A DNA stretch of 64,000 nucleotides from Natranaerofaba carboxydovora (GCF_022539405.1 NZ_CP054394.1:436501-500500); one strand, 5' to 3'; shown: positions 26,143 through 59,577, counted from the first letter of the stretch. A program made the numbers and translations. The notes: generated from the sequence alone by a model not told the origin.

Positions 26143-26176
26143 TTAATTGAGACAGCGGTTATATGGGGGTAATATT

Positions 26177-28096
26177 ATGAATTACATAATTGGTACTGCA
26201 GGCCATATTGATCACGGGAAAACTAACTTAATCTATGGACTTACTGGTGAAAACACCGACAGGCTAGAAGAAGAAAAAAATCGAGGTATCTCTGTTGATC
26301 TTGGTTTTGCTCCCCTGCAGCTTTCTGGTGGAGGGATTGCCGGGATAGTTGACGTTCCTGGACATGAAAAATTTGTACATAATATGCTTGCAGGAGCTGC
26401 AGGTGTTGATATGGTTTTGTTAGTTATAGATGTAACTGAAGGTATTATGCCTCAAACAAAGGAACACCTTGCTATAATGGAGTTATTAGAAGTTAACTCT
26501 GGAATAATTGTCTTAACCAAAATTGATCTGGAAGATAAAGAATGGGTAGATATGATGGAAATGGAAGTCAGAGAGGAATTAGAAAACACTTTTTTGGCTG
26601 ACAAACCCCTAGCAAAAGTTTCTAATCAAACTGGAGAAGGTTTAGAAGAGTTAAAAAATTTAATTGAAATTGAATTAGAAAATGCTACTTCAAAAAATGT
26701 AGACGGGCCTTTAAGGATTCCTATTGATAGGGTCTTTAAGATACAGGGTTTTGGTACTGTAATAACAGGAACAATGGCTTCTGGGACTTTAGAAGAAAAT
26801 GAAGAGGTTGAATTGGTTCCTGGAAATATTAAAACAAGAATAAGAAAAATACAAGTTTACAAGAATGAAGTAAAAAAAGCCGAAGCTGGTCAAAGGGTAG
26901 CGTTAAATTTATCAGGAGTTGATAGAGAAGACATATTTAGAGGAACAGTAGTAGGCAGACCTGGTTTTTATGAAGCCGTAAGCCATATGGATGTTAGGTT
27001 AAAGCTTCTTGATAATATAGATTGGACTCTAAAAAACGGCTCACCCCTACATCTTCACCTTGGAACAGGGGAAACAGTAGCGAGAACATATTTTTATGAA
27101 AACAAAAAATTAGCACCAGGTGAGTCTGCCTTATGTCAGCTAAGGCTTGAGAAACCTCTTGTTGCCTATAGAAAAGATAAATTTATAATACGTTCATATT
27201 CTCCTGTTACTACAATAGGGGGAGGATATATTATCGAGCACAAAACTAAAAAACACAAACTAAAGGATAAAAAGGTAATAGAAAGACTAAAAAGCCTTGA
27301 AAAAGGCAACCCGAAGGATATTATAATGGAAATTGTCCTGGCAAGGGCCCCTATAACTGATAATGATCTTTATAAACAAAGTGGACTTGGGGAAAATGAT
27401 TTTGAAAAAACTTTTAATGAGTTAATTGATAATAAATCAATGATTAAGTTAAATGATTACTTGATAGATAAAGGCCTGTATGAAAAGCTAAAAGAGTTAG
27501 TAAAAGAAAAATTAAAAGAATATCATGACAAATATCCCTTAAGAAAAGGTAGAGCTAAAGCTGAGCTTATGGGAGTGGTTTCAAAGCTGCCTCAAAGAGC
27601 TTATCAGGCTTTTCTTGAGACTTTACAAAAAGAAGAAAATATAATTGAAATCGAAGAGGATTATGTGAGGTTAAAAGATTTTAAACCAGCTATATCAGAA
27701 GAAGACGAAAACAAAATGAAACAAATAGAAGAGCTATTAGAAAAAGAGCTGTTTAAACCGCCAAATAAAAAACAGTTGTTAGAAGAATTAAGCGATCTGG
27801 GCATAGATATTGAACAAAAAAAGCTTGATGAATATCTTGAATTCTTAAAGAAGAATGATCGTGTGGTTAAAACATCGGAAGACTTATTTTATTCAAAGAA
27901 AGCTTTTGATGAGGCGAAAAATATTTTAAAAAAATATTTTGAAGCAAATGATACTTTATCTATCGGAACCTGGCGAGACCTTTTAGGGACAACAAGACGT
28001 TATGCAATACCTATTTTAGAAAAATTCGACCAGGAAAAACTCGTAAAAAGAGACGGGGATGTTAGACTTCCCTGGATGATAAAAAAAGTTAAATAA
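26177..28096 (+). CDS. selB: Selenocysteine-specific elongation factor SelB
   Basis: Translation GTPase of 639 residues that delivers selenocysteinyl-tRNA to UGA codons next to a SECIS hairpin. G motifs are GTAGHIDHGKT (5-15), DVPGHEKF (near 58-65) and TKID (near 112). EF-Tu-like domains 2-3 and the SelB-specific domain follow, then a C-terminal region of winged helices that binds SECIS RNA (roughly 370-639). ATG 26177 has GGGGGT upstream. The adjacent selD and three UGA-containing genes in this window fit an active selenocysteine system. Confidence 0.96.
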   Translation: MNYIIGTAGHIDHGKTNLIYGLTGENTDRLEEEKNRGISVDLGFAPLQLSGGGIAGIVDVPGHEKFVHNMLAGAAGVDMVLLVIDVTEGIMPQTKEHLAIMELLEVNSGIIVLTKIDLEDKEWVDMMEMEVREELENTFLADKPLAKVSNQTGEGLEELKNLIEIELENATSKNVDGPLRIPIDRVFKIQGFGTVITGTMASGTLEENEEVELVPGNIKTRIRKIQVYKNEVKKAEAGQRVALNLSGVDREDIFRGTVVGRPGFYEAVSHMDVRLKLLDNIDWTLKNGSPLHLHLGTGETVARTYFYENKKLAPGESALCQLRLEKPLVAYRKDKFIIRSYSPVTTIGGGYIIEHKTKKHKLKDKKVIERLKSLEKGNPKDIIMEIVLARAPITDNDLYKQSGLGENDFEKTFNELIDNKSMIKLNDYLIDKGLYEKLKELVKEKLKEYHDKYPLRKGRAKAELMGVVSKLPQRAYQAFLETLQKEENIIEIEEDYVRLKDFKPAISEEDENKMKQIEELLEKELFKPPNKKQLLEELSDLGIDIEQKKLDEYLEFLKKNDRVVKTSEDLFYSKKAFDEAKNILKKYFEANDTLSIGTWRDLLGTTRRYAIPILEKFDQEKLVKRDGDVRLPWMIKKVK

Positions 28097-28369: not shown

Positions 28370-29431
28370 ATGACGAAGGAAGAAAAGTGTAGGCTTACAT
28401 CATACAGCACAAAAGCTGGATGAGCTGCTAAAGTAAGTCCGGAGGACTTACAGGAAGCTTTGCAAGATTTCACTTCAGATGCCAAAGAAAATTTGGATTC
28501 CAATTTATTGGTGGGCTTAGATGCTTCGGATGATTGTGGAGTTTACAAACTAAACTCTGAGATTGCCCTTATCCAAACAGTAGATTTTTTCACACCTGTT
28601 GTTGATGATCCATATATTTTTGGGCAGATAGCAGCGGCAAACGCATTAAGTGATGTATACGCCATGGGGGCAAAACCTGTTACCTGCTTAAATCTATTAG
28701 CCTTTCCTATTGATAAACTTGGGACTAAAATTTTAAAAGATATTTTAAAAGGTGGAAGTGACAAAATCAAAGAAGCAGGTGCCCACCTAGTAGGGGGTCA
28801 CTCCATAACCGATAGTGAACCTAAATATGGCCTATCAGTTACAGGAGTACAGCATCCTGATAAAGTAATTACCAACTCAGATGCTAAACCTGGTGATTAC
28901 TTAATACTTACTAAGCCCTTAGGTGTAGGAATTATTACAACGGCAATCAAAAAAGGATTAGCCAAAGAAGAAGACCTAGATGCTGTAATAAAAACCATGA
29001 CAAGACTAAATAAAGATGCAGGTGAGGTGCTAGAAGAATTCTCTGTTTCTGCCTGTACTGATATAACTGGTTTTGGTCTTTTGGGGCATACTTATGAGAT
29101 GGCCAAAGGAAGTGAGGTCACTATTGAGCTTGATGTTTCAAAAGTGCCGGTCCTAGCAGGTACAAAAAAATATGTTGAAAACAAGGCAGTTGCCGGAGGG
29201 ACCAAAAAGAACTTAAGCTATTTCAGTAGTTATATTGAAGGGTTAGATAAGATTTCAGAAGGGGAGCAGTATATAATTGCCGATGCTATAACTTCCGGTG
29301 GGCTTTTGATTGCCATCAATGAAGACGAATGTGACCAATTAATAAACAAACTAAAAGAACAAGGGTGCTTATCTACAGAGGTTGTTGGAAAAGTTTTGGA
29401 AAAAGATAAATGTGAGATAAAAATAAAATAA
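28370..29431 (+). CDS. selD: Selenide, water dikinase SelD, itself a selenoprotein (Sec18 at UGA 28421-28423)
   Basis: Makes selenophosphate from selenide and ATP for selenocysteine and selenouridine synthesis. Read from ATG 28370, 353 residues follow with a single in-frame TGA at codon 18, in YSTKAG-U-AAKVSP, exactly where SelD has its catalytic Cys or Sec. Ignoring the TGA would remove the active site. The body carries FTPVVDDPYIFGQIAAANALSDVYAMG near 82-108, the Mg-ATP motif. GGTGG precedes the ATG. A perfect hairpin starts 9 bases after the UGA. Autoregulation by selenium supply is plausible. Confidence 0.96.
28433..28451 (+). promoter_or_regulatory. Bacterial SECIS element in selD mRNA
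   Basis: Eight-base perfect arms, GTAAGTCC and GGACTTAC, flank a GGA loop. It begins 9 bases after the UGA, inside the coding sequence, as needed for SelB recognition. Confidence 0.8.
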
Positions 29432-36875: not shown

Positions 36876-37535
36876 ATGGAATTTTTGACTAAAGTATTGG
36901 ATAGGAGAAAATTTTTAAAAACCAGTGGAGCAGGTATAGCGTTAACTGCTGTTGGAATGAGTTTAAGTGGCTGTGGAAGTGAAGAAGCAGCAATGGCTGA
37001 AGGAGAATTAGGTACTCCGAAAAAAGTTTTAACCGTTGACAACACTCGCTGTGTTGGATGTAGAAGGTGTGAGTTTACTTGTTCTGTAAGAAATACTGGA
37101 AACTCAGGCAGTGTTGTATCAGGAATTAAAGTTGATAGAAATTACAATTTTGGACCCGAACAAAATAATTTAGGAATTGCTAAAACTGAAGGTAAGTATG
37201 GAAATGGTAGAGTAATGCCGGAAAACTGTAATCAATGTAAGGATCCTGTGCCTTGTGCAGAAGTATGTCCACAGGATGCAATTGTTAATGAAGAGAATAC
37301 TGGAGCTAGGATGGTAAGTGAAGATGATTGTATTGGTTGTGGGGAATGTGTAAAAGCTTGTCCATGGGAAATGATAACCATCGATCCAGATAATGGAGTG
37401 GCCGCAAAATGTTTCCTTTGCTATGGATCACCTCAGTGTGCAACTGAGTGTCCGGTAGGAGCTATAGAGTTAATGACCTGGAGAGATTTATCTGACAGAT
37501 TTCCAGTAAGAAATTATAGTTCTATTTTTAAGTAA
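36876..37535 (+). CDS. Tat-targeted polyferredoxin, four [4Fe-4S] motifs, putative lipoprotein (AOR cassette 1)
   Basis: This 219-residue electron-transfer subunit has a twin-arginine signal, DRRKFLKTSG with R10-R11, followed by a hydrophobic stretch ending in LSGC (C33), a lipobox, so it may be a Tat-exported lipoprotein. Sixteen cysteines in four sets follow: CVGCRRCEFTC, CNQCKDPVPCAEVCP, CIGCGECVKACP, CFLCYGSPQCATECP. The fold matches DmsB/PhsB-type and E. coli YdhY/YdhX subunits. It lies 104 bases before the AOR gene and should take electrons from it. A paralogue is encoded at 41443-42087. Confidence 0.88.
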   Translation: MEFLTKVLDRRKFLKTSGAGIALTAVGMSLSGCGSEEAAMAEGELGTPKKVLTVDNTRCVGCRRCEFTCSVRNTGNSGSVVSGIKVDRNYNFGPEQNNLGIAKTEGKYGNGRVMPENCNQCKDPVPCAEVCPQDAIVNEENTGARMVSEDDCIGCGECVKACPWEMITIDPDNGVAAKCFLCYGSPQCATECPVGAIELMTWRDLSDRFPVRNYSSIFK

Positions 37536-37639
37536 AAAAAGTTTTTTAATGCAACTATCTGTGAAAGTGATAACAATAACGAAAGTCGAATTGATGAGTT
37601 ACCATGGATAAGATAATATGATTTTAAGGAGGGGTAATA

Positions 37640-39727
37640 ATGGCTAACGGAGGTTGGACTGGAAAGATATTAAGAGTTAACCTTACAGATCGTACAGTTA
37701 CAGAAGAAAGTACAGAAAAATATAAAGATTACCTTGGTGGAATGGGTATAGGATATAAAGTTTTATGGGACGAAGTTCCTGCTGATGTAGAGGCTTTTGA
37801 TGAAGAAAATAAATTAGTATTTGGTGTAGGTCCTTTAACTGGCAGCGGAACGATCTGTAGCGGAAGAACTACCATTGTTTCCTTGTATCCAGGAACACCT
37901 AATCATCTGCCTACAGACAGTCATATGGGAGGTCACTGGGGACCTGAGCTAAAATTTGCAGGCTGGGATTCAATTATTATAGAAGGAAAAGCTGATTCTC
38001 TGGTTTGGTTAAGAATAGAGGATGATAAGGTTACTATTGAAGATGCAAGTAGACTTGAGCAGCAAGGAATTTATCGTACAACCACTGAAATATGTGAGAT
38101 CATGGGGCCAGAAGCTCAAGTAGCTGCTATCGGTCAGGCTGGAGAGAACATGGTTAACATGTCAGTAATAATGAACAGTTGGTGCCATTCTGCAGGCGGT
38201 CATGGCGGTGTTATGGGTTCAAAGAACCTAAAAGCTGTTGGTGTAAGAGGAACTGGAACAGTAAAAGTAGCAGATCCTGCAAAGTGGAGAGAATGTGATG
38301 ACGATACGTTTTATATAATCGGGTCGAACAACCAGGGCGTTGTACCGACACAGCCTCAGTACTGGTCAGAATGGTACGGTAACGGCAGTCGTTGGTATGC
38401 TACTCCTGGAATGACATGGGGAGCAGCTAACCCTCCAGTTGTATTACCAGATACTAATCCTAATTTAGATAATTGGAAAAATACTGTAGGTTATAGGTGT
38501 CAAAAAGCTCAGCAGGATTTAACTAGTGAAGCTGAAAAGTATACAGTGAAGATGGACGGATGCTATTCTTGTCCGATTAGATGTATGGGTGTTGTTGAAG
38601 TGCCGCAGATGGAAGAATATGGGCTGCCCAGATGGGCTGCTAACACATGTCTTGGATGGTCTGGAAGGCTTTCTGCTGGTGGGCCAAGATATATTTCAAG
38701 ACTTATAGGAAAACATTTGGCTGATGACTATGGCACTTGGTGTAACTACGGACAGATATTCAGAGATGTTGTTTGGGCATATGAAAATGGTCACTGGAAA
38801 GAGCACCTTCCAGAAGATGAGTACAATGAAATTCCTTGGGACATGCTAGAAGACGAGAATCCAGAGTTTATGTTTGAGCATTTCAGGAGAGTTGCCTTTA
38901 AGGAAGGTGAGTATGGCAGAATTATGGGTCTAGGCTCGTACTGGATTGCAAAGGAACTAGGTTTTAGTGATGAGTATTATCATGGTGACGAAGATGGTGA
39001 AGGTACGAATATTTGGAATCCTGCGCTAGGTTTTCCAAGGCATCACTCTAGTGAGTCTTATGCACAAGTAGGAGCATTAATAAACATGGTACAGGCAAAC
39101 TTCCATGCCCAAAACCATACACATCAAAACCTAAAGAACTCTGGACTACCAAATGAATATGAGAACAAAGCAGTAAAGAATATTCCAATGGTAGGCTTGG
39201 ATGGAGCAATAGACCCTGATGGACATTATAGCCCGATGAATGAAGCAAAAGCCAAATATGCTAAATTTAGTATAATAAGGAATGTACTGCATGATGCACT
39301 AACTCTATGTAACTGGATGTGGCCATGGCAGGTATCTCCAAGGGAAGATTTAGATTTCATGGGAGACACAGCTATGGAAGCTAAGTATATGACTGCTGTA
39401 ACTGGTGAAGAGTATACAGAGGATGAACTAGATGAAATTGCAGAGAGATTATGGACACTACACAGGTTATATACTCTTAAGAGAGCAGGATATACAAATA
39501 TGAGAAAAGAACATGACGAAAAAGTAGCAGACTGGGTTTTCGACAGAGACCCTGACATGGAACCATTTGAAGAAGGTACCCTTAAAATGGATAGGGATGA
39601 TTTACTTGGAACAGGTCTAGACATGTTCTACGAAGAGATGGGTTGGGATAAAGAGACTGGAATCCCAACTAGACAAACTCTTGAGAGATTAGGACTTAGC
39701 TATGCTGCAGATGAGCTAGGAATTTAA
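37640..39727 (+). CDS. Aldehyde:ferredoxin oxidoreductase family protein, YdhV-like (AOR cassette 1)
   Basis: Tungsten- or molybdenum-pterin enzyme of 695 residues. The AOR N-terminal domain starts NGGWTGKILRVNLTDR and includes GVGPLTGSGTICSGRT near 63-78 and SAGGHGGVMGSKNLKAVGVRG near 186-206. The [4Fe-4S] ligands are C308, C311 and C315 (CYSCPIRC) plus C557 in LTLCNWMW. No signal peptide is present although its partner has a Tat signal, so export would be as a complex. Physiological substrate is unknown. Length and partners resemble E. coli YdhV more than classical AOR. Confidence 0.9.
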   Translation: MANGGWTGKILRVNLTDRTVTEESTEKYKDYLGGMGIGYKVLWDEVPADVEAFDEENKLVFGVGPLTGSGTICSGRTTIVSLYPGTPNHLPTDSHMGGHWGPELKFAGWDSIIIEGKADSLVWLRIEDDKVTIEDASRLEQQGIYRTTTEICEIMGPEAQVAAIGQAGENMVNMSVIMNSWCHSAGGHGGVMGSKNLKAVGVRGTGTVKVADPAKWRECDDDTFYIIGSNNQGVVPTQPQYWSEWYGNGSRWYATPGMTWGAANPPVVLPDTNPNLDNWKNTVGYRCQKAQQDLTSEAEKYTVKMDGCYSCPIRCMGVVEVPQMEEYGLPRWAANTCLGWSGRLSAGGPRYISRLIGKHLADDYGTWCNYGQIFRDVVWAYENGHWKEHLPEDEYNEIPWDMLEDENPEFMFEHFRRVAFKEGEYGRIMGLGSYWIAKELGFSDEYYHGDEDGEGTNIWNPALGFPRHHSSESYAQVGALINMVQANFHAQNHTHQNLKNSGLPNEYENKAVKNIPMVGLDGAIDPDGHYSPMNEAKAKYAKFSIIRNVLHDALTLCNWMWPWQVSPREDLDFMGDTAMEAKYMTAVTGEEYTEDELDEIAERLWTLHRLYTLKRAGYTNMRKEHDEKVADWVFDRDPDMEPFEEGTLKMDRDDLLGTGLDMFYEEMGWDKETGIPTRQTLERLGLSYAADELGI

Positions 39728-39753
39728 GAAAATCCAAATTTTGATATTTGGAG

Positions 39754-39784
39754 ATATCGGGTCCTTTTTAAAGGGCCCGATATA
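39754..39784 (+). terminator. Intra-operon hairpin between AOR 1 and the YdhW-like gene
   Basis: ATATCGGG-T-CC pairs with GG-G-CCCGATAT across a T/A-rich loop. There is no T-run after it, so it is more likely an mRNA-stability or partial attenuation hairpin than a full terminator. Confidence 0.45.
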
Positions 39785-39824
39785 AATAAAGATAAAAATT
39801 TTAATTAGAAGGGGGGAGTGCAAC

Positions 39825-40421
39825 TTGACAGAAGAGAAAAAAAATAATCAACAACAACCAGAGAAAGCATCGGAAGTAAACAAGGAAGTAGATGAAAGGT
39901 CTAAGTTAGTTGCCCATATTAGAGAAAAATCTAACAAAGGTGAGATAGTAAAATATAAAGAACTATATGAAGAACCTTTTTCATATCAAGAAGAGAGTTT
40001 GAAAGAAATCCTTGGAGAAATTAAAAATAATGAAGAGTATGATGATATTCATATTTTAAAAGGCACTAAAGGATATTATTTATACAGTGATCAGGTTATG
40101 AAAGGTCATTATGCTTTGATACTTGCTAAAATGGAAGATAAGGATAACCCCGGACTAATTGCTGAAATGGTAAGAAAGGATTCTAGAACTTACCCTAGAC
40201 CTACTGATGCTAAAACTTTTTATGGCTTTCCGTTTTTTATGAGTGAAGAAGACTTAGAGGATGTCTTAGAAGATATGAAAAAACATCCTGATTACCAGGA
40301 TATTAATGAAGTATTTGCTTCCGATGGCAGCAGATTTTTGTTTTCAAGTGAACACATGAAAGAAAGGCGAGCTAAATTATTAGCTGAGCAAGAAGCAGTG
40401 GACAGGGTTAATTTTCCTTAG
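39825..40421 (+). CDS. YdhW-like AOR-associated protein (cassette 1)
   Basis: Soluble 198-residue protein of unknown function. Two similar halves can be seen: each has an acidic helix followed by a pattern ending in an FxxS/YLYSD-type strand (KGYYLYSDQVMKGHYALILA near 84-103; SRFLFSSEHMKERRAKLLAE near 168-187). The best-conserved stretch with the paralogue at 44431 is DNPGLIAEMVRKDSRTYPRPTDA. Position after an AOR gene and size match YdhW of the E. coli ydhYVWXUT operon, so a maturation or assembly role is likely. TTG 39825 follows GGGGGGAG. Confidence 0.6.
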   Translation: MTEEKKNNQQQPEKASEVNKEVDERSKLVAHIREKSNKGEIVKYKELYEEPFSYQEESLKEILGEIKNNEEYDDIHILKGTKGYYLYSDQVMKGHYALILAKMEDKDNPGLIAEMVRKDSRTYPRPTDAKTFYGFPFFMSEEDLEDVLEDMKKHPDYQDINEVFASDGSRFLFSSEHMKERRAKLLAEQEAVDRVNFP

Positions 40422-40519
40422 AAAATTAATTAATTTCAATATAGTATGTACCAGCTTAATTTAGTATAAAATTGAAATTATAGATATTTAATAAATTAAT
40501 AAGTAAAGCTAGAAATGGG

Positions 40520-41065
40520 GTGGGTGCACTGAGTACAAAAGAAACGATACGAAGAGAAGATTATATCAATATTGAAGTTGAATTAAAAACAAGTGAATTT
40601 GAAACAGATGATTCCAAAAATGAAGCTATTTATGAGAAACTAATGGAAAAGCTTTTTCAAGAGTATTGGTGGGATGTTCCAGATGATATAGTTTGGGGAG
40701 AAGTGGATGGAAGATTGAAAGATTTTGAAAAAGAGATTCGTAGAGATGGGATAAGTTTGATGGATTATGCCAAGAATAAAGGTTTGACTTTAGAGGAATT
40801 CACTGAGGAGATGTATGATGAAACAAAGAAAAGGTTAAATCGTGAAATAATTTTAGAAACTATAGCAAATAACGAAAATATTTCACCGTCGGAAAGCGAG
40901 ATTGATAAGGAAATAGAAAAAGTGGGTAGAAGGTATGGGTACACTAAAGAGGCAGCTAAAGCCCTAATTAAAAGAAATAATGATTTAGATAAATTAAAGA
41001 AAAAAGCACTGTTGATTAAAACAAAGCAATTTTTGATAGATAATGCGAAAGTTAGTATAAAATAA
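40520..41065 (+). CDS. Trigger factor C-terminal-domain-like protein (AOR cassette 1)
   Basis: This 181-residue helical protein resembles the C-terminal chaperone domain of trigger factor: an opening strand, then EAIYEKLMEKLFQEYWWDVPDD, a long helix, LTLEEFTEEMYDETKKRLNREIILETIANNENISPSESEIDKEI near 92-136, and a final helix. The ribosome-binding and PPIase domains are absent. No cysteines are present. It could be a dedicated chaperone for the AOR or polyferredoxin. GTG 40520 is uncertain; CTG 40529 would suit the GGGGTGGG site better. A paralogue is at 45018-45533. Confidence 0.6.
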   Translation: MGALSTKETIRREDYINIEVELKTSEFETDDSKNEAIYEKLMEKLFQEYWWDVPDDIVWGEVDGRLKDFEKEIRRDGISLMDYAKNKGLTLEEFTEEMYDETKKRLNREIILETIANNENISPSESEIDKEIEKVGRRYGYTKEAAKALIKRNNDLDKLKKKALLIKTKQFLIDNAKVSIK

Positions 41066-41090
41066 AAATAAAAATTAAAAATACAAGCTA

Positions 41091-41126
41091 AAAAGGGACT
41101 GGCCGCTTATGGTACAGTCCTTTTTA
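41091..41126 (+). terminator. Terminator after AOR cassette 1
   Basis: AAAAGGGACTG pairs with CAGTCCTTTT around a 13-base loop, with a T-run. It separates the two cassettes. Confidence 0.85.
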
Positions 41127-41343
41127 ATGTTTATAATAGAAACTATCAAATGAAATTTTTAACAAAAAATTTCATAAATTCGGAAGGATTTATTTTAACT
41201 TAAGGTGAATATATAGTTTAAAAGATGAGTAAACATTTTGTAAACCAACATAGTTAGATATTTCACGAACATGTGACTGGAATAAAAAATATTTTAAATA
41301 AAAATTATATTAAAATATTTTTTTAATTTTGTAATTTTATGAA

Positions 41344-41366
41344 TTATCAAAGATTATAATTGATAA
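41344..41366 (+). promoter_or_regulatory. Dyad upstream of AOR cassette 2
   Basis: TTATCAA and TTGATAA are perfect 7-base inverted repeats separated by 9 bases, about 77 bases before the polyferredoxin start. It may be an operator or a hairpin. The 377-base gap 41066-41442 otherwise holds the terminator and A/T-rich sequence with no visible gene. Confidence 0.4.
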
Positions 41367-41442
41367 GGGGGGATGTATTTTATCTATCTTAACTAATTTA
41401 AGTAGGGGTTTTATTATCAAAATTAAAAGAGGAGGGAAAACA

Positions 41443-42087
41443 ATGAAATTATTTGCAAAATGCCTTAATAGGAGGAGCTTTTTAAAAACTAGTGGGGCTG
41501 GTATTGCGTTGACTGCTTTGGGTTTAAGCCTGTCTAGCAGTGAAGTTCATGCTGCAAATGACTTTGATGTGCCTGAAAAAATATTGTCAGTAGATACTAC
41601 ACGCTGTACCGGTTGTAGGAAATGCGAGATCGTTTGTTCAGTATTAAATAGAGGCAACTCAAACCCAAAAACGTCAGGTATAAAAGTTGGTAGAAACTAT
41701 GGTTTTGGACAAGGTTCTTCAAATATGGGGATGTGGAACGGTGAAGGTCAATATGGTAACTTCCGTATAGTACCAGAAACTTGTAATCAGTGTAAAGAGC
41801 CTGTTGTTTGTGCTGATGTATGCCCTCAAGATGCTATAGTTGAGGACGAAAATACGGGGGCAAGAATTGTAAATGAAGATGAATGCATTGGCTGTGAGCA
41901 GTGCGTTAAAGCTTGCCCGTGGGAAATGATAAAAGTAGATCCTGTGGATGGTATAGCTGCGAAATGTAACTTGTGTTTTGGCTCACCTCAATGTGCAGCT
42001 AACTGTCCTACAGAAGCTATTAAACTTATCTCATGGAGAGATCTTTCAGGTAGAACGCCAATTAGAAATTACAGCTCTATACTATAA
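41443..42087 (+). CDS. Tat-targeted polyferredoxin, four [4Fe-4S] motifs (AOR cassette 2)
   Basis: Paralogue (214 residues) of the protein at 36876. The twin-arginine signal is NRRSFLKTSGAG with R10-R11; here the signal ends in SSSEVHAAND, a signal peptidase I type site with no lipobox cysteine, so it should be released rather than lipid-anchored. The four cluster motifs are intact: CTGCRKCEIVC, CNQCKEPVVCADVCP, CIGCEQCVKACP, CNLCFGSPQCAANCP. It precedes the second AOR by 69 bases. Confidence 0.88.
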   Translation: MKLFAKCLNRRSFLKTSGAGIALTALGLSLSSSEVHAANDFDVPEKILSVDTTRCTGCRKCEIVCSVLNRGNSNPKTSGIKVGRNYGFGQGSSNMGMWNGEGQYGNFRIVPETCNQCKEPVVCADVCPQDAIVEDENTGARIVNEDECIGCEQCVKACPWEMIKVDPVDGIAAKCNLCFGSPQCAANCPTEAIKLISWRDLSGRTPIRNYSSIL

Positions 42088-42156
42088 GGTATAGTGTTCT
42101 TTAAATGCGAAAAGTGTGAACGTGATATCAAGAACTTACAATGAGGAGGGTTAGTT

Positions 42157-44217
42157 ATGGCGATAAATGGAGGCTGGACCGGTAAGGTATTAAGGGTTAA
42201 CTTATCAGATGGTTCAATAACTGAGGAAAGTACAGAGAAATATAAAGACTATCTAGGTGGAATGGGACTTGGCTATAAAGTGATTTGGGATGAAGTTCCC
42301 GAGGGTATTAGCGCATTTGATGAAGAAAACAAAATAGTGTTTGGGGTTGGACCTTTAACTGGCAGTGGTGTAGGTTGTAGTGGAAGGACAAATATTACTT
42401 CGTTAATGCCAACTGTTCCTGGCCATCTTGTAGCTGACAGTCATATGGGAGGTCATTGGGGGCCAGAGCTAAAGTTTGCAGGATGGGATTCAATTATTAT
42501 TGAAGGAAAGGCAGATAAGCCTGTATGGTTAAAAATAGAAAATGAAAATGTATCAATAGAAGATGCAAGTTCAATTTGGGGCAATGGTATATTTAGAGCC
42601 ACTACCGAAATAACTCAGATTATGGGACCTGAAGCTCGTGTAGCAGCAATCGGTCAAGCGGGGGAAAATGAAGTTCCTATGGCTACAATTTTGAATGATG
42701 GTAGTCATTCTGCTGGTGGACATGGTGGAGTAATGGGGTCCAAAAAACTCAAAGCTATTGGCGTTAAAGGTAATAACCCTGTTAGAGTAGCAGACCCTGA
42801 AAAGTGGAGAGAGCTTGATGAAGAACTTATGGAAGTTATTGGTTCTAACAACCAGCACGTAGTTCCTACTACTCCTCAGGCATGGGCAGAATATCATGAT
42901 TCAGGTACCAGGTGGTGGGCATATGACGGCAACTACTGGCAGCAGGCAGATCCGCCGATAAATACTGGAGACTGCGATATTTATGCTGATAACTGGAAAA
43001 ACACAATAGGGTATAGATGCCACAAAGCTAGCGATATAGGAGCGGCAGATGGGCAATATACGGTAAGGCAGGGTGGATGCCATGCATGTCCTGTTCGTTG
43101 TCATACTCATGCTAAGGCTACTGAGCTAGAGAAGTATGGATACTCAAGTTATAAATCAAATACTTGTGTAGGTTGGTTTGCTCATACAGCAGGTTGGTGG
43201 CAGGGAGATTCTGCTGATCCGACTATTGCTAGAATGCTTGGATCACAGCTTGCAGATGATTATGGTATATGGGATAACTACATGTTGACTGGTAATACTT
43301 TTGGATATATGTATAGAGAAGGTTTATTTGAAGAGATTCTACCGGAAGATGAGTATGAAGATATCCCATGGGACAAGATGGAAGCCGGGGATCCAGAATT
43401 TTTAATTGATATTTATAAAAGAATTGCTTTTAAAGAAGGAGAAATTTCAAAACTAGGCTGGGGTACAGGAGCAGTAGCAAAAGAATGGGGCATTGCAGAT
43501 AATCCAAAATTCTGGGAAGAAGCTGCAGTATATAATCCAAAGTTATTCTATAGACAGCATCACGCTCATGAAACATACAATCAGGTTGGTGCACTATTGA
43601 ACGTAATGTTTAATAGAGATGCGCAGCTTCATACTCATGTAAACTTATTTGGCTGTGGGCTACCCCATGAATACCATGAGAAGGCTATGGAGCAAATTCA
43701 CATGGTAGGGTCTGGAGATGCAGTTGACGAACCAGGAGATTATACCCCTGTTAACGAATACAAAGCTAAGTACGCTGTATGGAGCATTGTTAGAAACCTT
43801 CTACACGACTCCCTTACTCTTTGTAACTGGATGTGGCCTATGCAGGTATCACCAAGAAAAGAAAGAGACTATATGGGTAATACAGCCTTAGAAGCTGATT
43901 TTATGACTGCAGTAACGGGCGAGGAGTATACAGAAGAAGAACTAGATGATATTGGCATGAAGCTATTTACCTTACATCGTGCATTAACAGTTAAGCAGAT
44001 GGGAACAGTTGATATGAGAAATGAACACGATGTTTTCAGCGACTGGATCTTTGAAGAAACTGATATGGAAGAAGATGACCTACAAGAAGGTTTGACACTT
44101 ATTTATAGAGTAATGGGTTGGTGCGAAGAGACAGGAGCACCAACGAGAGAGTCTCTAGAAAATTATGGTTTAGGATATGTAGCTGATGAATTAGCAGACA
44201 AAAATCTGCTTCCCTAA
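42157..44217 (+). CDS. Aldehyde:ferredoxin oxidoreductase family protein, YdhV-like (AOR cassette 2)
   Basis: Paralogue (686 residues) of the AOR at 37640, with strong similarity throughout the N-terminal pterin domain (NGGWTGKVLRVNLSDGS, GGMGLGYKVIWDEVP, GPLTGSGVGCSGRT). Cluster ligands are C308, C311, C315 (CHACPVRC) and C556 in LTLCNWMW. Between residues 220 and 290 and around 315-345 it diverges from copy 1 (for example HTHAKATELEKYG and FAHTAGWWQGDS), which is where substrate specificity may differ. No signal peptide is seen. Confidence 0.9.
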   Translation: MAINGGWTGKVLRVNLSDGSITEESTEKYKDYLGGMGLGYKVIWDEVPEGISAFDEENKIVFGVGPLTGSGVGCSGRTNITSLMPTVPGHLVADSHMGGHWGPELKFAGWDSIIIEGKADKPVWLKIENENVSIEDASSIWGNGIFRATTEITQIMGPEARVAAIGQAGENEVPMATILNDGSHSAGGHGGVMGSKKLKAIGVKGNNPVRVADPEKWRELDEELMEVIGSNNQHVVPTTPQAWAEYHDSGTRWWAYDGNYWQQADPPINTGDCDIYADNWKNTIGYRCHKASDIGAADGQYTVRQGGCHACPVRCHTHAKATELEKYGYSSYKSNTCVGWFAHTAGWWQGDSADPTIARMLGSQLADDYGIWDNYMLTGNTFGYMYREGLFEEILPEDEYEDIPWDKMEAGDPEFLIDIYKRIAFKEGEISKLGWGTGAVAKEWGIADNPKFWEEAAVYNPKLFYRQHHAHETYNQVGALLNVMFNRDAQLHTHVNLFGCGLPHEYHEKAMEQIHMVGSGDAVDEPGDYTPVNEYKAKYAVWSIVRNLLHDSLTLCNWMWPMQVSPRKERDYMGNTALEADFMTAVTGEEYTEEELDDIGMKLFTLHRALTVKQMGTVDMRNEHDVFSDWIFEETDMEEDDLQEGLTLIYRVMGWCEETGAPTRESLENYGLGYVADELADKNLLP

Positions 44218-44228
44218 TTAATAGATGT

Positions 44229-44268
44229 GGGGCTCTTGCTTCTCTTTGCTTGAGTCCCCTTTTAATTA
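44229..44268 (+). terminator. Terminator-like hairpin after AOR 2
   Basis: GGGGCTC pairs with GAGTCCCC with a one-base bulge and is followed by TTTTAATT. It could lower expression of the two following genes relative to the AOR. Confidence 0.55.
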
Positions 44269-44277
44269 AAATAATGC

Positions 44278-44405
44278 TTGATTTAACTGCAAAAAATTAT
44301 ATAAATAAAGTTTGTTTTTAATTGCAATACACCTTGGTGAAGATACAGGAGAAATAAAGCCTAATGACATGATGTTATTAGCTAATTGAACATAGGAGGA
44401 TATAT
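44278..44405 (-). repeat. Partial inverted copy of long palindromic repeat, family A (copy 4)
   Basis: Read on minus it matches the right two-thirds of copy 2: TTTTTAATTGCAATACACCTT, GAAATAAAGCCTAATGACAT, and the GCTAATTGAAC continuation all align. The far arm is missing. It lies between AOR 2 and the second YdhW-like gene. Confidence 0.65.
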
Positions 44406-44430
44406 ATAAGCTGTAAAAGGAGGGCTTAAA

Positions 44431-44985
44431 GTGAATAACGAAGATAAAGATGATAAAAAAACAAATTTAATTATAGATAAAATTAGGGAGAATACTAGAA
44501 ATAATAGATTAACTTATGTCAAAAACTTTCTTGAAGAACCCTTTAATTTAAATGAAAATGAAATTCTAGAAAAAATAGATAAAGCAAGGGAAAAGGAAGA
44601 AAATCAGGACATAAAAGTACTAAAGGGGAAAAAAGGCTATTATTTTTACAGCAATAAAAGAATGACTAAAGAATATGCTTTAATTCTTGCTGGTTTAGAA
44701 GATAATGATAACCCAGGATTGATTGCACATCATGTTAGGAATGATTGTAAAACTTATCCAAGACCTACAGATAATAGAGTTTTTATGAATTTTCCTTTCT
44801 TTTTGAGTGAAGAAGAGCTAACTGAGACTCTTGAGGAAATGACAAAACATCCCGATTATGAAGATATAAAAAAGTTATATACATCTAATGGAGTTATGTT
44901 TTTATATTCTGACAAACACCTTTCGGAAAAGCGTGCAAAGAGAATAGCCGAGCATAGGGAAGTAATCAGTAAGCAATCTATCTAA
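44431..44985 (+). CDS. YdhW-like AOR-associated protein (cassette 2)
   Basis: Paralogue (184 residues) of 39825-40421. Shared blocks are KGYYFYSNKRMTKEYALILAG near 71-91, DNPGLIAHHVRNDCKTYPRPTD near 96-117, FPFFLSEEELTETLEEMTKHPDYEDIKKLY near 123-152, and FLYSDKHLSEKRAKRIAEH near 159-177. It has a single cysteine. GTG 44431 follows AAAAGGAGGG. Conservation of the same gene order in both cassettes argues for a function tied to its own AOR. Confidence 0.6.
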   Translation: MNNEDKDDKKTNLIIDKIRENTRNNRLTYVKNFLEEPFNLNENEILEKIDKAREKEENQDIKVLKGKKGYYFYSNKRMTKEYALILAGLEDNDNPGLIAHHVRNDCKTYPRPTDNRVFMNFPFFLSEEELTETLEEMTKHPDYEDIKKLYTSNGVMFLYSDKHLSEKRAKRIAEHREVISKQSI

Positions 44986-45017
44986 ATGTTTGATGTTTAA
45001 TCTAGGGGGCGGATATC

Positions 45018-45533
45018 TTGAACAATAAAATTATAGAAGAAAAAATTTTGTTGGCCGATTACAAAAATTTATTTATAAAGTTTGATTCAGAATTATCTAA
45101 TGAGGAAAAATACAAATTGATTATAGATGAAATAATATCACAATCTAAGGTGGAAATACCTGAATCAAAGGTTGTTAAGGAAATGGAAAATACCCAAAAA
45201 GACATAGGAGATGTAATAAAATATCACGGAACAAATATTGTGGACTATCTCTCAGACCAAGGGGTATCTCTTACAGAGTATAAAGATTTTTTGCGTGAGA
45301 AAACAACAAGGAAATTAAGTGAAGAACTGATCCTTGAAAAAATAGCAAAACAAGAGAATTTATTAGCAAATGATAGTGAAGTCGATAAAGCAGTACAAGA
45401 GCTAGCCCAGAAAGAGAAAATTGATAAAGAGAGTTCTTATGAAATATTGAAAATAAGTAACCAATTGGAAGTTATAAAAAGGGCCATTACAATAAATAAA
45501 GTAAAAACTTATCTAATAGATCTTTATGTTTAA
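45018..45533 (+). CDS. Trigger factor C-terminal-domain-like protein (AOR cassette 2)
   Basis: Paralogue (171 residues) of 40520-41065 with the same plan: a short N-terminal strand (DYKNLFIKFDSELSN), then helices with SKVEIPESKVVKEMENTQKDIG, GVSLTEYKDFLREKTTRKLSEELILEKIAKQENLLANDSEVDKAV, and a closing helix VIKRAITINKVKTYLIDLYV. The order matches trigger factor residues after the PPIase domain. TTG 45018 follows GGGGGCGG. No cysteines are present. The identification is from pattern only. Confidence 0.6.
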   Translation: MNNKIIEEKILLADYKNLFIKFDSELSNEEKYKLIIDEIISQSKVEIPESKVVKEMENTQKDIGDVIKYHGTNIVDYLSDQGVSLTEYKDFLREKTTRKLSEELILEKIAKQENLLANDSEVDKAVQELAQKEKIDKESSYEILKISNQLEVIKRAITINKVKTYLIDLYV

Positions 45534-45649: not shown

Positions 45650-46402
45650 ATGGAGCTACCTATCTGCAATGAAGCGCCTGTAGATTTGATTGTAAATGAC
45701 AATAAAATAGTAACATTTATGTGTACTCCGCAGAATTTAAAAGAACTTACCGTAGGTTATCTCTATAGCAGAGGGATAATAAAAAGTATAGCTGATATTT
45801 TGGTACTTGGAGCTTGTGATGATATGAGAGAAGTACATGTAAAAATATCAGGCCAGCTTAAAAAAGAACAGATTGGACTAGGAGTAGTACTAAGCGGCTG
45901 TGGGAGTGGTGGAGGCAATTTTTTTGATAAAGAAAAATTGCAAAGTTGGACTGTTGATTCAAATTTTAGTATTTCGACTGTTAACTTAAGAGAATTCTTT
46001 AAAGAAATGAATGATAGAGCAGAGCTGTATAATCAAACCGGGGGAATGCACAGCGCAGGTGTTATTAGTGAAAATGAATTAGTACTGGTCCAAGAAGATG
46101 TGGGTCGTCATAATTCAGTGGATAAAGCGATAGGAAAAGGGTTATTTTTAGGGCTAGATCCTTCTAAACATGGGATAATTACCACTGGCAGATTATCTTC
46201 AGACCTTGTGCTAAAATCGATTGGTGCTGGATATTCTTTAGTGGCAACAAGGAGTATACCTACTACGATGGCTTATGATATGGCCAAAGAAACAGGAATT
46301 ATTCTAATTGGCCGTGGGGCAAGGAAATCTCCTTATGTATATACACAGTCTCAAAAAATATCCCTAGATGATGAAAATATTGAAAAAGGCGAGGCAAAGT
46401 AG
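45650..46402 (+). CDS. fdhD: Formate dehydrogenase accessory sulfurtransferase FdhD
   Basis: FdhD moves sulfur to the bis-MGD cofactor of formate dehydrogenases. This 250-residue protein has NEAPVDLIVNDN near 8-19, GGMHSAGV near 127-134, EDVGRHNSVDKAIG near 147-160 and TTGRLSSDLVLK near 180-191, all family signatures. The usual CxxC loop is represented by a single cysteine in LSGCGSGGG. ATG 45650 follows GGAGGG. Three bases separate it from mobA. Its substrate enzyme, a formate dehydrogenase, is not in the window. Confidence 0.9.
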   Translation: MELPICNEAPVDLIVNDNKIVTFMCTPQNLKELTVGYLYSRGIIKSIADILVLGACDDMREVHVKISGQLKKEQIGLGVVLSGCGSGGGNFFDKEKLQSWTVDSNFSISTVNLREFFKEMNDRAELYNQTGGMHSAGVISENELVLVQEDVGRHNSVDKAIGKGLFLGLDPSKHGIITTGRLSSDLVLKSIGAGYSLVATRSIPTTMAYDMAKETGIILIGRGARKSPYVYTQSQKISLDDENIEKGEAK

Positions 46403-46404
46403 TT

Positions 46405-47013
46405 ATGACTGGCATAATTTTGGCAGGTGGAGATAGTAAAAGGATGGGGAAAAATAAGGCTTTATTAGATTTATGTGGGAAGCCTTTGATTGAGTGGGTT
46501 TTTGAAAATATCAAACAGGTTACAGATGAAGTTATAATTGTTACAGACAAACCACATTTGTATGAAAATATTCCAGCCAAAAAAATATCTGATAAAATAT
46601 CATGTGAAGGAAAAAATCCTCTGGTAGGAATATATTCCGGGCTTTGTGTTTCTAACAGTAGATATAATATTGCTGTTGCATGTGATATGCCTTTTATTAG
46701 TATTAGCCTGGCCAGGGCTATGTTTGAAGAAGCAAATAAAGGACAGCACGAAGTTGTTGTTCCTCATATTGATGGACATCTTGAACCACTTTGTGCTGTA
46801 TATCATAGAGAAACAAGGTTTTTGATTGAAGATTGGTTGAAGAGAGGAAAATTTAAAATTCCCGATATATATGAACACTTTAAGACAAAATTTTTGTCTG
46901 AAAAATTTTGTCTTAATTATGATCCCGAACTATATAGTTTTTTGAATTTAAACTACCCCTCTGATTTTGACAAGGCTAAAGAAATTTGCAAAGAAAGAGC
47001 AAAAAAATTGTAA
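46405..47013 (+). CDS. mobA: Molybdenum cofactor guanylyltransferase MobA
   Basis: Attaches GMP to molybdopterin to form the MGD cofactor. The nucleotidyltransferase motif GIILAGGDSKRMGKNKALL is at 3-21; the metal-binding aspartate lies in VACDMPFI near 92-99, and VPHIDGHLEPLCAVYHR near 112-128 matches the family. Length 202 is usual. Overlap-like spacing of 2 bases after fdhD suggests translational coupling. AOR enzymes themselves use pterin without nucleotide, so mobA points to another molybdoenzyme. Confidence 0.93.
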   Translation: MTGIILAGGDSKRMGKNKALLDLCGKPLIEWVFENIKQVTDEVIIVTDKPHLYENIPAKKISDKISCEGKNPLVGIYSGLCVSNSRYNIAVACDMPFISISLARAMFEEANKGQHEVVVPHIDGHLEPLCAVYHRETRFLIEDWLKRGKFKIPDIYEHFKTKFLSEKFCLNYDPELYSFLNLNYPSDFDKAKEICKERAKKL

Positions 47014-50009: not shown

Positions 50010-50459
50010 GTGAGTATTAATAACACAACTAATAAAGAAGGATATTTAATTAGCGAAGCCTCTGAGATTTCAAAACTTCCATCTAAGACAATCCGGTATT
50101 ACGAAGATATAGGACTTATCCCGTCTCCACAGCGAAGTAAAAGCGGTTATAGGGTATTTACTAAAGAGGATATTAGACGTTTAAAGCTTATAAAAAAAGC
50201 AAAATACCTGGGCATTTCTTTAGAAGAAATAAAAGAGATTGTGGATTTAGCCTTTGAAGAAAGTTGTAGAGATTTTGAAGAGAGGTTTGTAACGCTTTTG
50301 AGCGAGAAAATAAGTGAAGTAAATGAAACTATTAATGAGCTTTATGATCTTAGAAGGGAATTAGTTAATACCAAAAATCAAATAACTAAGAATCAAGAGC
50401 TTTTTAGGAAAGATTGCCGTGCAGGGGAATGTGAAGAGTGTAGTTTTATTGATGAGTAG
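50010..50459 (+). CDS. MerR family metal-responsive transcriptional regulator
   Basis: Regulator of 149 residues: N-terminal winged helix with YLISEASEISKLPSKTIRYYEDIGLIPSPQRS (residues 12-43) and a dimerising coiled coil near 85-120, ending in a cysteine patch CRAGECEEC near 135-143. That patch resembles the metal-binding loops of soft-metal MerR proteins. The operator dyad with a 19-base promoter spacer lies just upstream, so it probably controls itself and the following two genes. Effector is likely a metal or metalloid; arsM in the operon points to arsenic or antimony. Confidence 0.85.
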   Translation: MSINNTTNKEGYLISEASEISKLPSKTIRYYEDIGLIPSPQRSKSGYRVFTKEDIRRLKLIKKAKYLGISLEEIKEIVDLAFEESCRDFEERFVTLLSEKISEVNETINELYDLRRELVNTKNQITKNQELFRKDCRAGECEECSFIDE

Positions 50460-50498
50460 TGTTGCAAATAAAATAATTAAAAAAGGGTGTTGTTATTT

Positions 50499-51104
50499 AT
50501 GGAAAATGAAAGGACATATTTTAACCAAATTGAAAAAGAATACCTGGCTATCGGAGCAAGTATTGGTTCAGGTTGTTTGCACTGTTTGGATTATCATTTG
50601 AAAAAAGCAAGAAGTGCCCGGATTACAGATTCTGAAATAGATACTGCCCTAGCGATAGCAGAGGACATAAAGCAAAAAACCCTCGATGACCTACGAAATC
50701 GTGCAAGGAACATGAATGCAGAAGATGGACAAAAAGATCAAGAGGACGAGGAAATATTACCTACAAATAAAAATAAAATTCTCGCTGCCTTTGGGGCCGC
50801 ACTTGGAACAAATAATTCTAGTGAATTGAAGAAAGTTTTGAATATGGCAACTAATGTAGGTCTAACCAAAGCTCACATAGCTGTAGCTTCTCAAATTGTA
50901 AGAAAGATAAAAAAGAATGCAGAAGATATATGTGGAAAAACAGTGCTTGATCACTTTAGTTATCTGGATAATATGAGCGAAGAAGTTGAAGCAGGTGCAA
51001 TGTGCGGATTTATGAATGGACAAAGCAAGGATGAAGAATCTCCATGCTGCGGAGATGTAGATGATGAAGGTGACGAAAATAAAAACCAAAGTGGATGTTG
51101 TTAA
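50499..51104 (+). CDS. Carboxymuconolactone decarboxylase/AhpD-like protein
   Basis: Helical redox protein of 201 residues with an AhpD-type active site, GSGCLHCLDYHLKKA (C26, C29, H33). A second, cysteine-poor repeat of the fold (NMATNVGLTKAHIAVASQIVRKIK near 110-135) follows, then a cysteine-rich acidic tail (CCGDVDD and a terminal GCC) that may bind a metalloid. ATG 50499 is selected over GTG 50487, as AAAAGGGTG serves it. Such genes commonly accompany arsM with a merR in clostridia; the exact role is unproven. Confidence 0.75.
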   Translation: MENERTYFNQIEKEYLAIGASIGSGCLHCLDYHLKKARSARITDSEIDTALAIAEDIKQKTLDDLRNRARNMNAEDGQKDQEDEEILPTNKNKILAAFGAALGTNNSSELKKVLNMATNVGLTKAHIAVASQIVRKIKKNAEDICGKTVLDHFSYLDNMSEEVEAGAMCGFMNGQSKDEESPCCGDVDDEGDENKNQSGCC

Positions 51105-51119
51105 AGGAGGTAGGGATAT

Positions 51120-51968
51120 ATGGATGGTAATAAGTCGAATGATACTAGTAGAGACATAAAAAAAACAGTTAGTGAAGCATACGGCAAGATTGCCAAGGAA
51201 AGTGAAATCTGCTGTGGTCCATCATGCTGTGATACTAATGAGGCGGATGGCAAAAATTATTTGCAAAAGATTGGTTATACAGAAGCAGAGATAAAATCAA
51301 TACCAGAAGAAGCTAATCTTTCCCTTGGCTGTGGGAATCCAACTGGGATCGCCGAATTAAATGAAGGAGAAGTTGTACTTGATCTTGGCTCTGGTGCAGG
51401 AGTCGATTGTTTGCTGGCTGCAGCAAAAGTAGGCGAAAAAGGAAGAGTAATAGGTGTTGATATGACTCCTGAGATGATAGCAAAGGCTAGAAAAAATGCC
51501 GAGAAACATAACTATTCAAATGTTGAATTTAGACTTGGTGAAATAGAGAATCTGCCTCTAGCTGATAATTCTGTAGATGTTGTTATAAGTAATTGTGTTA
51601 TTAATCTTTCAGCTGACAAATCCCGGGTTTTTGAGGAAATTTATCGAGTGTTAAAGCCAGGTGGAAGAATCTCTATCTCAGATATTGCTCTAAGCGAAGA
51701 ACTTCCTAAAGAGATAAAAAATCTTGATAAAGCTTATGTGAGCTGTATTGCAGGTGCAATATTGATTGAAGAATATGACCGAATTGTCACAGATAGAGGT
51801 TTTAAAGAAGTCATGATTATTGACAAAGAAAATTCAGCCTGTGTAGATTCTTTCACTAATGATCCAGTTGCAAAAGAAGTTATTGAAAACTTAAATAATC
51901 TGGATGAGTCTTTGGTAGAAAAATTAAAAGATCAGGTTGTAAGCATAGATGTCAAAGGAAAAAAATAA
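51120..51968 (+). CDS. arsM: Arsenite methyltransferase ArsM
   Basis: SAM-dependent enzyme of 282 residues that methylates As(III). The SAM motif VVLDLGSGAGVDCLLAA lies at 85-101, preceded by SLGCGNP with C71. C159 (SNCVINLS) and C209 (VSCIAG) complete the arsenic-binding cysteine triad; the N-terminal ICCGPSCC (C31, C32, C36, C37) is an extra pair. It starts 15 bases after the AhpD-like gene behind AAAGGAGG. The order merR-AhpD-arsM forms one operon. Confidence 0.93.
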   Translation: MDGNKSNDTSRDIKKTVSEAYGKIAKESEICCGPSCCDTNEADGKNYLQKIGYTEAEIKSIPEEANLSLGCGNPTGIAELNEGEVVLDLGSGAGVDCLLAAAKVGEKGRVIGVDMTPEMIAKARKNAEKHNYSNVEFRLGEIENLPLADNSVDVVISNCVINLSADKSRVFEEIYRVLKPGGRISISDIALSEELPKEIKNLDKAYVSCIAGAILIEEYDRIVTDRGFKEVMIIDKENSACVDSFTNDPVAKEVIENLNNLDESLVEKLKDQVVSIDVKGKK

Positions 51969-59069: not shown

Positions 59070-59415
59070 AGAGTCCTTGCCTGAGAAATATTCAGACAAG
59101 GACGATGATTACCGCGGTGCCACCTTGTTTGTTCATACAATTATATGAACCACTTAATAAAAAGGTAAGGTTCTAAAGTTTTGGATTAAAATAAAAAATC
59201 TCCCCCTCATTAGGGCGAGAATTAGCTCGCTATACCACCTAAACTATTAGAACTATTACCTACTCCCGGTAACGGCGGGAACTACCGACTCTACATACTA
59301 CCTTAAGGATTTAGTAGAGTAGCTCAGAAAGGCCAACTTCACCTAGATCTATCTTCGGCAGCTTCCAGTCGATGACTGCCTTCCCTGGAGAAGAATCAAT
59401 CAGGCTACTTTCCTT
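59070..59415 (-). promoter_or_regulatory. T-box riboswitch leader of aroF with two antiterminator/terminator units
   Basis: On minus, Stem I is closed by AGTAGC (59409-59404) and GCTACT (59323-59318 region). A first T-box element AGGTGGTATAGCGAGC (59240-59225) is followed by terminator arms TCTCGCCCT/AGGGGGAGA and a T-run (59220-59190). A second, canonical element AAGGTGGCACCGCGGT (59126-59111) is followed by terminator GTCCTTGTCTGA/TCAGGCAAGGAC (59103-59073). The candidate specifier is UGG (59335-59333), and the second element's UGGC would pair with a G73 discriminator, as in tRNA-Trp. UUC is an alternative. Confidence 0.88.
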
Positions 59416-59577
59416 TATCATTGCATTATCTTTTGAAATTTTTATTTTATCTGTTTTAAATAGGTTACTATAGCACGAGTTAGTTGTCAAGGGGATCGCA
59501 GATATTTGATAGGAGTAGACATTTGCAAATTATTAGTGTATATTTTCAAGAAGGATTAATTAAGAAAGGATGATTCT

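Follow-up and report, generated by a model that had tools for sequence, protein, structure and literature searches.

A tandemly duplicated Class V WOR operon in Natranaerofaba carboxydovora and its candidate assembly factors

A stretch of 64,000 nucleotides of the Natranaerofaba carboxydovora genome (GCF_022539405.1, NZ_CP054394.1:436501-500500; hereafter the window) carries two tandem copies of a four-gene cassette encoding a YdhY-like iron-sulfur protein (Y), a YdhV-type catalytic subunit of the aldehyde ferredoxin oxidoreductase (AOR) family (V), a YdhW-like protein (W) and a stand-alone trigger-factor C-domain (T). The host is a salt- and alkali-loving bacterium with a single-contig genome of 3.26 Mb, and all positions are counted within the window. 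The locus is a genuine variant of the Class V WOR operon, duplicated and specific to this lineage. The operon type itself has already been described (PMC13328260), and the unit includes the FdhD gene that follows the second copy. Based on the linkage to TatC, a negative charge peculiar to V among the AORs of the cell and a hairpin that separates V from W, we consider it fairly probable that Y and V of this duplicated YdhV-type operon mature in the cytoplasm and exit via the twin-arginine translocation (Tat) system, with W and T acting as cytoplasmic assembly factors.

An earlier note on this DNA had placed the same four gene types twice, at 36876-41065 and 41443-45533, in the same order and on the same strand, with a terminator between the cassettes. 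All eight open reading frames were found at exactly these positions on one strand, in the order Y-V-W-T in both copies. A terminator-like hairpin is also present between them, with a fold z of -3.5; the consensus scan does not list it. The features of the locus are as follows.

36876-37535, plus strand: Y1, YdhY-like Tat lipoprotein with four 4Fe-4S sites (16 cluster Cys), the motif DRRKFL and an LSGC lipobox
37640-39727, plus strand: V1, YdhV-type catalytic subunit (WorL, clade 41) with Cys337 as the presumed metal ligand
39754-39783, plus strand: hairpin V1-W1, dG -26.9 for a 73-nucleotide stretch, z -5.7
39825-40421, plus strand: W1, YdhW-like protein with two tandem winged-helix-like repeats, without a signal peptide
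40520-41065, plus strand: T1, stand-alone trigger-factor C-domain without a signal peptide, start codon uncertain
about 41091-41125, plus strand: terminator-like hairpin between the cassettes, with T-rich DNA downstream
41443-42087, plus strand: Y2, YdhY-like Tat protein with four 4Fe-4S sites, without a lipobox
42157-44217, plus strand: V2, YdhV-type catalytic subunit with Cys337
44229-44258, plus strand: hairpin V2-W2, z -3.4, followed by TTTT
44431-44985, plus strand: W2, YdhW-like protein
45018-45533, plus strand: T2, stand-alone trigger-factor C-domain
45650-46402, plus strand: FdhD (sulfurtransferase, Mo/W cofactor), Pfam FdhD-NarQ, E 6e-62
46405-47013, plus strand: MobA-like nucleotidyltransferase, Pfam NTP_transf_3, E 2e-33, starting 2 nucleotides past FdhD

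The four pairs are paralogous, as had been claimed, with identities between the copies of 64% for Y, 58% for V, 47% for W and 29% for T, and the proposed resemblance to E. coli ydhY, ydhV and ydhW is borne out by profile matches. V1 (930.6 bits) and V2 (972 bits) score above the 868 bits required by the model of the YdhV family, labelled "Class V WOR, clade 41", and contain AFOR_N and AFOR_C. Y1 (181 bits, E 2e-53) and Y2 (162 bits, E 1e-47) are clear matches to the NCBIfam YdhY family NF007382 that fall under its curated cut-off of 213 bits. W1 (158.7 bits, E 2e-46) and W2 (150 bits, E 9e-44) are likewise clear YdhW homologues below the curated cut-off of NF007411 (203 bits), an enterobacterial-type equivalog, and no Pfam model is over its cut-off with W.

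The earlier note had called V an AOR, which stands at the level of the family but not for aldehyde oxidoreductases in the strict sense. Both V proteins keep the cluster cysteines Cys308, Cys311 and Cys315 (CxxCxxxC) and Cys557 (V1) or Cys556 (V2), and Cys337 of each aligns with Cys336 of E. coli YdhV, the cysteine that a review names as a metal ligand common to YdhV and BamB (PMC12096430). The strict aldehyde oxidoreductases are recognised by a Glu-type second-shell motif (EYE) and the lack of a protein metal ligand; V1 and V2 have NTC in place of EYE, which is present in seven of the eight further AORs from the same genome included in the alignment. One of those AORs also has a Cys in the Cys337 column, adjoining its EYE. 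Since EYE is replaced, Cys337 is kept and the YdhV model is matched, V is assigned to Class V WOR (clade 41), and the name AOR is misleading because V belongs to the Cys-ligated YdhV/BamB type. Among the 12 AOR-family genes of the genome, only V1 and V2 are YdhV-type. The alignment suggests that V binds its metal, molybdenum or tungsten, as a bis-molybdopterin (bis-MPT) cofactor with a Cys ligand. The class is further characterised by a small subunit with a Tat signal, a membrane segment or both and by one or more additional genes, and here Y1 and Y2 (RR motif) and W are present. In PMC13328260, no activity is assigned to Class V WOR and Natranaerobius is named as a holder.

The locus can be compared with three known systems. 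BamB (Class II benzoyl-CoA reductase) is the best PDB match of V by sequence and shares the Cys metal ligand (PMC12096430), whereas the genes beside V match YdhY, YdhW and Trigger_C (a Bam-specific search was not made). The E. coli operon ydhYVWXUT has homologous Y, V and W in the order Y-V-W and the same Cys in V, whereas the window cassette is without YdhX, YdhU and YdhT genes, adds T, FdhD and MobA, and occurs in tandem copies. CsWOR41LSW of Cetobacterium somerae (PMC13328260) has the same large subunit, a Tat-bearing small subunit, W and a nearby FdhD; the text of that paper mentions neither a trigger factor nor a chaperone, and the parts read mention no tandem duplication or hairpin.

The neighbourhood of V was counted in a census of 69 YdhV loci, in which Y is found near V in 61, W in 59, TatC in 22, FdhD in 13, FMN_bind in 3, T in 2 and MobA in 1, counts that are not independent events, given the kinship among many of the gut loci and the truncation of some loci where a contig stops. 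The linkage of V with Y and W holds across phyla. The earlier note would have been refuted had the small genes stood next to AOR in this genome alone; by these counts W accompanies V widely, and T stands beside V within one order only, but in more than this genome. In three sediment metagenome-assembled genomes, which hold the nearest YdhVs outside the order, the gene order is W-FMN-Y-V. The gene between W and Y (L013:2914-3435, L014:6500-7207, L015:719-1273) had been suspected to be T; it encodes instead an exported FMN_bind-like protein, below the Pfam cut-off.

The evidence for export begins with Y. On the Pfam TAT_signal model (cut-off 22.7 bits), Y2 scores over the cut-off (27.4 bits) and Y1 just under it (21.7 bits), and the Tat motif is present in 52 of 60 Y proteins. 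Y1 has a lipobox (LSGC) and Y2 has none, in agreement with the earlier note; Y of a Natranaerobius-like genome (G002) has a lipobox as well. TatC lies within 7 kb of V in the 22 loci counted above. The single TatC of N. carboxydovora (G000:C1:740598-742411) stands beside a permease with a distant resemblance to the TupB-like permease of G002, and the genome encodes a closer TupB-like permease as well (46% to the G002 counterpart). V is without a signal peptide, and its net charge per 100 residues is -6.6 (V1) and -7.7 (V2), against a mean of -2.4 for the eight other AORs of the genome and -2.6 for 59 YdhVs elsewhere. V and these eight AORs share both a genome and a protein family, and the pattern recurs in G002, where V has -8.1 and the four other AORs have -3.1 to -5.3.

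In both copies, the stable hairpin listed above lies 3' of V. In the 80 nucleotides after V, a z below -3 was obtained for 27 of 53 V-W junctions versus 0 of 44 after Y. A stem of at least 9 pairs was present in 42 of 53 versus 6 of 44, with a T-rich tail in 19 of the former. The V-W hairpin is seen in most Bacillota ydhYVW operons, including L025, L044, L133 and L137-L139 (that of L133 was missed with 80 nucleotides and appeared on folding 110). Since the stem sequences differ between clades, the place of the hairpin is conserved in Bacillota without its sequence. Desulfomonile-type and E. coli operons have short V-W gaps with no clear hairpin; the ydhV-ydhW gap of 3 nucleotides in E. coli leaves no room for one, unlike the gaps of the window cassettes. 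The hairpin fits unequal expression of Y-V and W, which may come about by attenuation, 3'-end stabilisation or a separate W promoter.

The two halves of W align to each other (hhalign 98.5%, E 3e-15), and the halves of W1 score 91, with a shuffle maximum of 49. In the predicted model (pLDDT 91), three helices, a hairpin and a helix occur twice. The best PDB fold matches are mostly tandem winged-helix proteins, but they are weak, with none at E <0.001 and a full-length TM-score of ~0.3, and therefore the placing of the two repeats either differs from these matches or is uncertain. W has no signal peptide.

T1 (91.7 bits, E 7e-26) and T2 (66.3 bits, E 4e-18) are over the 22.7-bit cut-off of Pfam Trigger_C (PF05698). 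On the model of the whole trigger factor (TIGR00115, cut-off 180.2 bits) they reach 75.7 and 57.6 bits, covering only profile positions 267-409. The T1 model (pLDDT 88, built from two sequences) matches the Thermotoga trigger-factor C-domain 2nsa in Foldseek (E 5e-5, TM-score 0.64). T therefore has the C-terminal domain and fold of trigger factor but differs from it in its length of 171-181 residues and in being without a ribosome-binding or peptidyl-prolyl isomerase domain. T1, T2 and T of G002 group together (100/98), separate from the C-domains of 24 housekeeping trigger factors. Among 399 Bacillota genomes, a clear stand-alone T was found in N. carboxydovora and G002 only; four further short frames (145, 154, 193 and 263 residues) may stem from ordinary trigger factors cut off where a contig stops.

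The two loci with T beside V belong to these two genomes, which represent two families of one order and differ in gene order, that of G002 being T, ferredoxin-like gene, Y, V, W, FdhD. The ferredoxin-like gene (L133:11268-12308, minus strand) encodes a 347-residue protein with two pairs of 4Fe-4S sites and has no counterpart in the window cassettes. T as a general partner of V is ruled out, with T in none of the 60 genome_contigs loci. The simplest reading of T would be a dedicated holdase for apo-V or apo-Y. The role proposed for W and T is analogous to that of TorD-type private chaperones, cytoplasmic helpers that act before Tat export; neither W nor T belongs to that family, as the TorD-type models in Pfam and NCBIfam give no match to them up to E 1. 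According to PMC9103625, the cofactor-insertion chaperone for YdhV is not identified, and our literature search found no paper linking trigger factor with aldehyde ferredoxin oxidoreductase.

In the concatenated tree of Y, V and W, the two copies are sisters (100/99) and G002 is next, and the approximately unbiased (AU) test rejects a grouping of G002 with copy 2 (p 0.018) or copy 1 (p 0.001). The V tree gives the same result, with V1 and V2 as sisters (95/96) and G002 V next (99/99), but with V alone a grouping of V2 with G002 V is not rejected (p 0.09). The three Y proteins form one clade (100/99), as do the three W proteins (95/98). A duplication before the split from G002 is favoured only by the T tree, which has long branches and joins T2 to G002 T (96/86) without rejecting T1 with T2 (p 0.38), and the Y+V+W test rejects the alternatives to sister copies. 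With the copies as sisters and G002 next, the tandem duplication came after the split from G002. The four genes thus appear to share one history as far as the trees resolve it, with the branching inside the T clade unsettled, and the earlier claim of one duplicated unit is upheld. Tandem expansion is not unique to the window, because a V-Y-V arrangement is found in genome G196 of another family (L142:1-3550), and G026 and G106, the relatives of that genome, hold two YdhVs each; this is a separate expansion.

After the duplication, the copies diverged in sequence. Among the 133 columns that are invariant in 14 other YdhVs, 15 are changed in V1 and 7 in V2, and the changes of V1 include R488F and D489H (invariant NRD to NFH) and W140E/G141Q (invariant WG to EQ). 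The difference in internal blocks reported previously is confirmed: the alignment of V1 and V2 has a 5-residue gap after about residue 346 of V1, differs in a block spanning roughly 440-460 and has a second gap, some 11-13 residues long, close to the C-terminus. Judged from such substitutions and the loss of the lipobox in Y2, functional divergence is plausible, and the specialisation that the earlier note suggested is to this extent supported but not proven.

In the proposed mechanism, Y, which bears the only Tat signal, would relay electrons through its four 4Fe-4S sites. V would fold and obtain its cofactor in the cytoplasm, FdhD being the likely sulfurtransferase for this cofactor, and would then leave the cytoplasm along with Y by way of the single TatC, enzyme 1 being lipid-anchored and enzyme 2 not. 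W and T, having no signal, would stay inside as assembly factors, W across the whole family and T as an addition of this lineage that holds apo-subunits. The hairpin after V would allow the cell to produce more Y-V than W-T. The duplication of the operon postdates the separation from the Natranaerobius-like line and was followed by divergence of the copies. A more specific version, which we offer tentatively, is that W supplies the maturation factor still missing for bis-MPT (YdhV-type) enzymes, as a kind of chaperone unrelated to TorD, and that this lineage co-opted T as a second, dedicated chaperone, which was duplicated with its client.

Several observations weigh against this mechanism, besides the relatedness of the census loci and the weak fold matches of W. 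The acidity of V is an indirect sign of export, and Y is not acidic. According to PMC13328260, the YdhV-type V of Cetobacterium somerae still acquired tungsten when expressed in the absence of its W gene, with no activity seen, and therefore W would not be needed for metal uptake as such. E. coli YdhV has likewise been purified with Mo without the full operon. Finally, T occurs in one order only and is therefore not essential to the YdhV family.

W may instead be a structural component of the enzyme, in line with the name WorLSW, with T aiding the folding of one subunit or being a bystander. Its frequent presence near V agrees with this, tandem winged-helix matches are often parts of stable complexes, and PMC13328260 leaves the subunit status of the third gene open. 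However, W lacks an export signal such as the one that makes Y a Tat protein, the hairpin that parts W from V in most Bacillota operons fits unequal amounts, and W evolves faster than V, judging from the identities between the copies; we find a structural role rather doubtful. The winged-helix topology of the model, with the repressors MecI, BlaI and BigR among the matches, could also point to a transcription factor that regulates its own operon. This is very unlikely, given that helix 3 of repeat 1, which is where DNA is usually read, averages a net charge of -2.9 in 29 family members, which is not typical of a DNA contact, and that E. coli YdhW is similarly acidic (isoelectric point 4.6).

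Two further alternatives concern the enzyme itself, and both seem unlikely to us. Y and V could remain cytoplasmic, the Tat signal of Y serving only for membrane attachment or being a relic; V has no signal and the cassette has no membrane anchor gene, but the TatC linkage, the acidity of V and not of other AORs in two genomes, and the lipobox in Y1 and G002 Y argue for export. The two copies could also be redundant and matter by dosage only, which would suit their tandem arrangement and the retention of all cluster cysteines and Cys337 in both. Against such redundancy stand the low identities of V and T, the substitutions in V1 and the loss of the Y2 lipobox.

YdhV-type enzymes are found in organisms as different as E. 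coli, gut Clostridia and bacteria of soda lakes, and this locus suggests how such an enzyme may be assembled before export. It is a natural experiment in which two diverged copies each have their own chaperone candidate. The statements on W, which concern its fold, its repeats and its likely lower expression, are relevant to ydhW of E. coli and to many gut Clostridia.

Other features were observed elsewhere in the window. A SelD gene (28379-29428, plus strand), with SelB directly upstream (26147-28093), is probably a selenoprotein gene itself because of an in-frame TGA at 28421-28423 (KAGUAAK). A T-box leader is located at 59095-59430 on the minus strand (Rfam RF00230, 105.9 bits). A MerR-like regulator, an AhpD-like protein and the arsenite methyltransferase ArsM are encoded consecutively at 50010-51968 on the plus strand.

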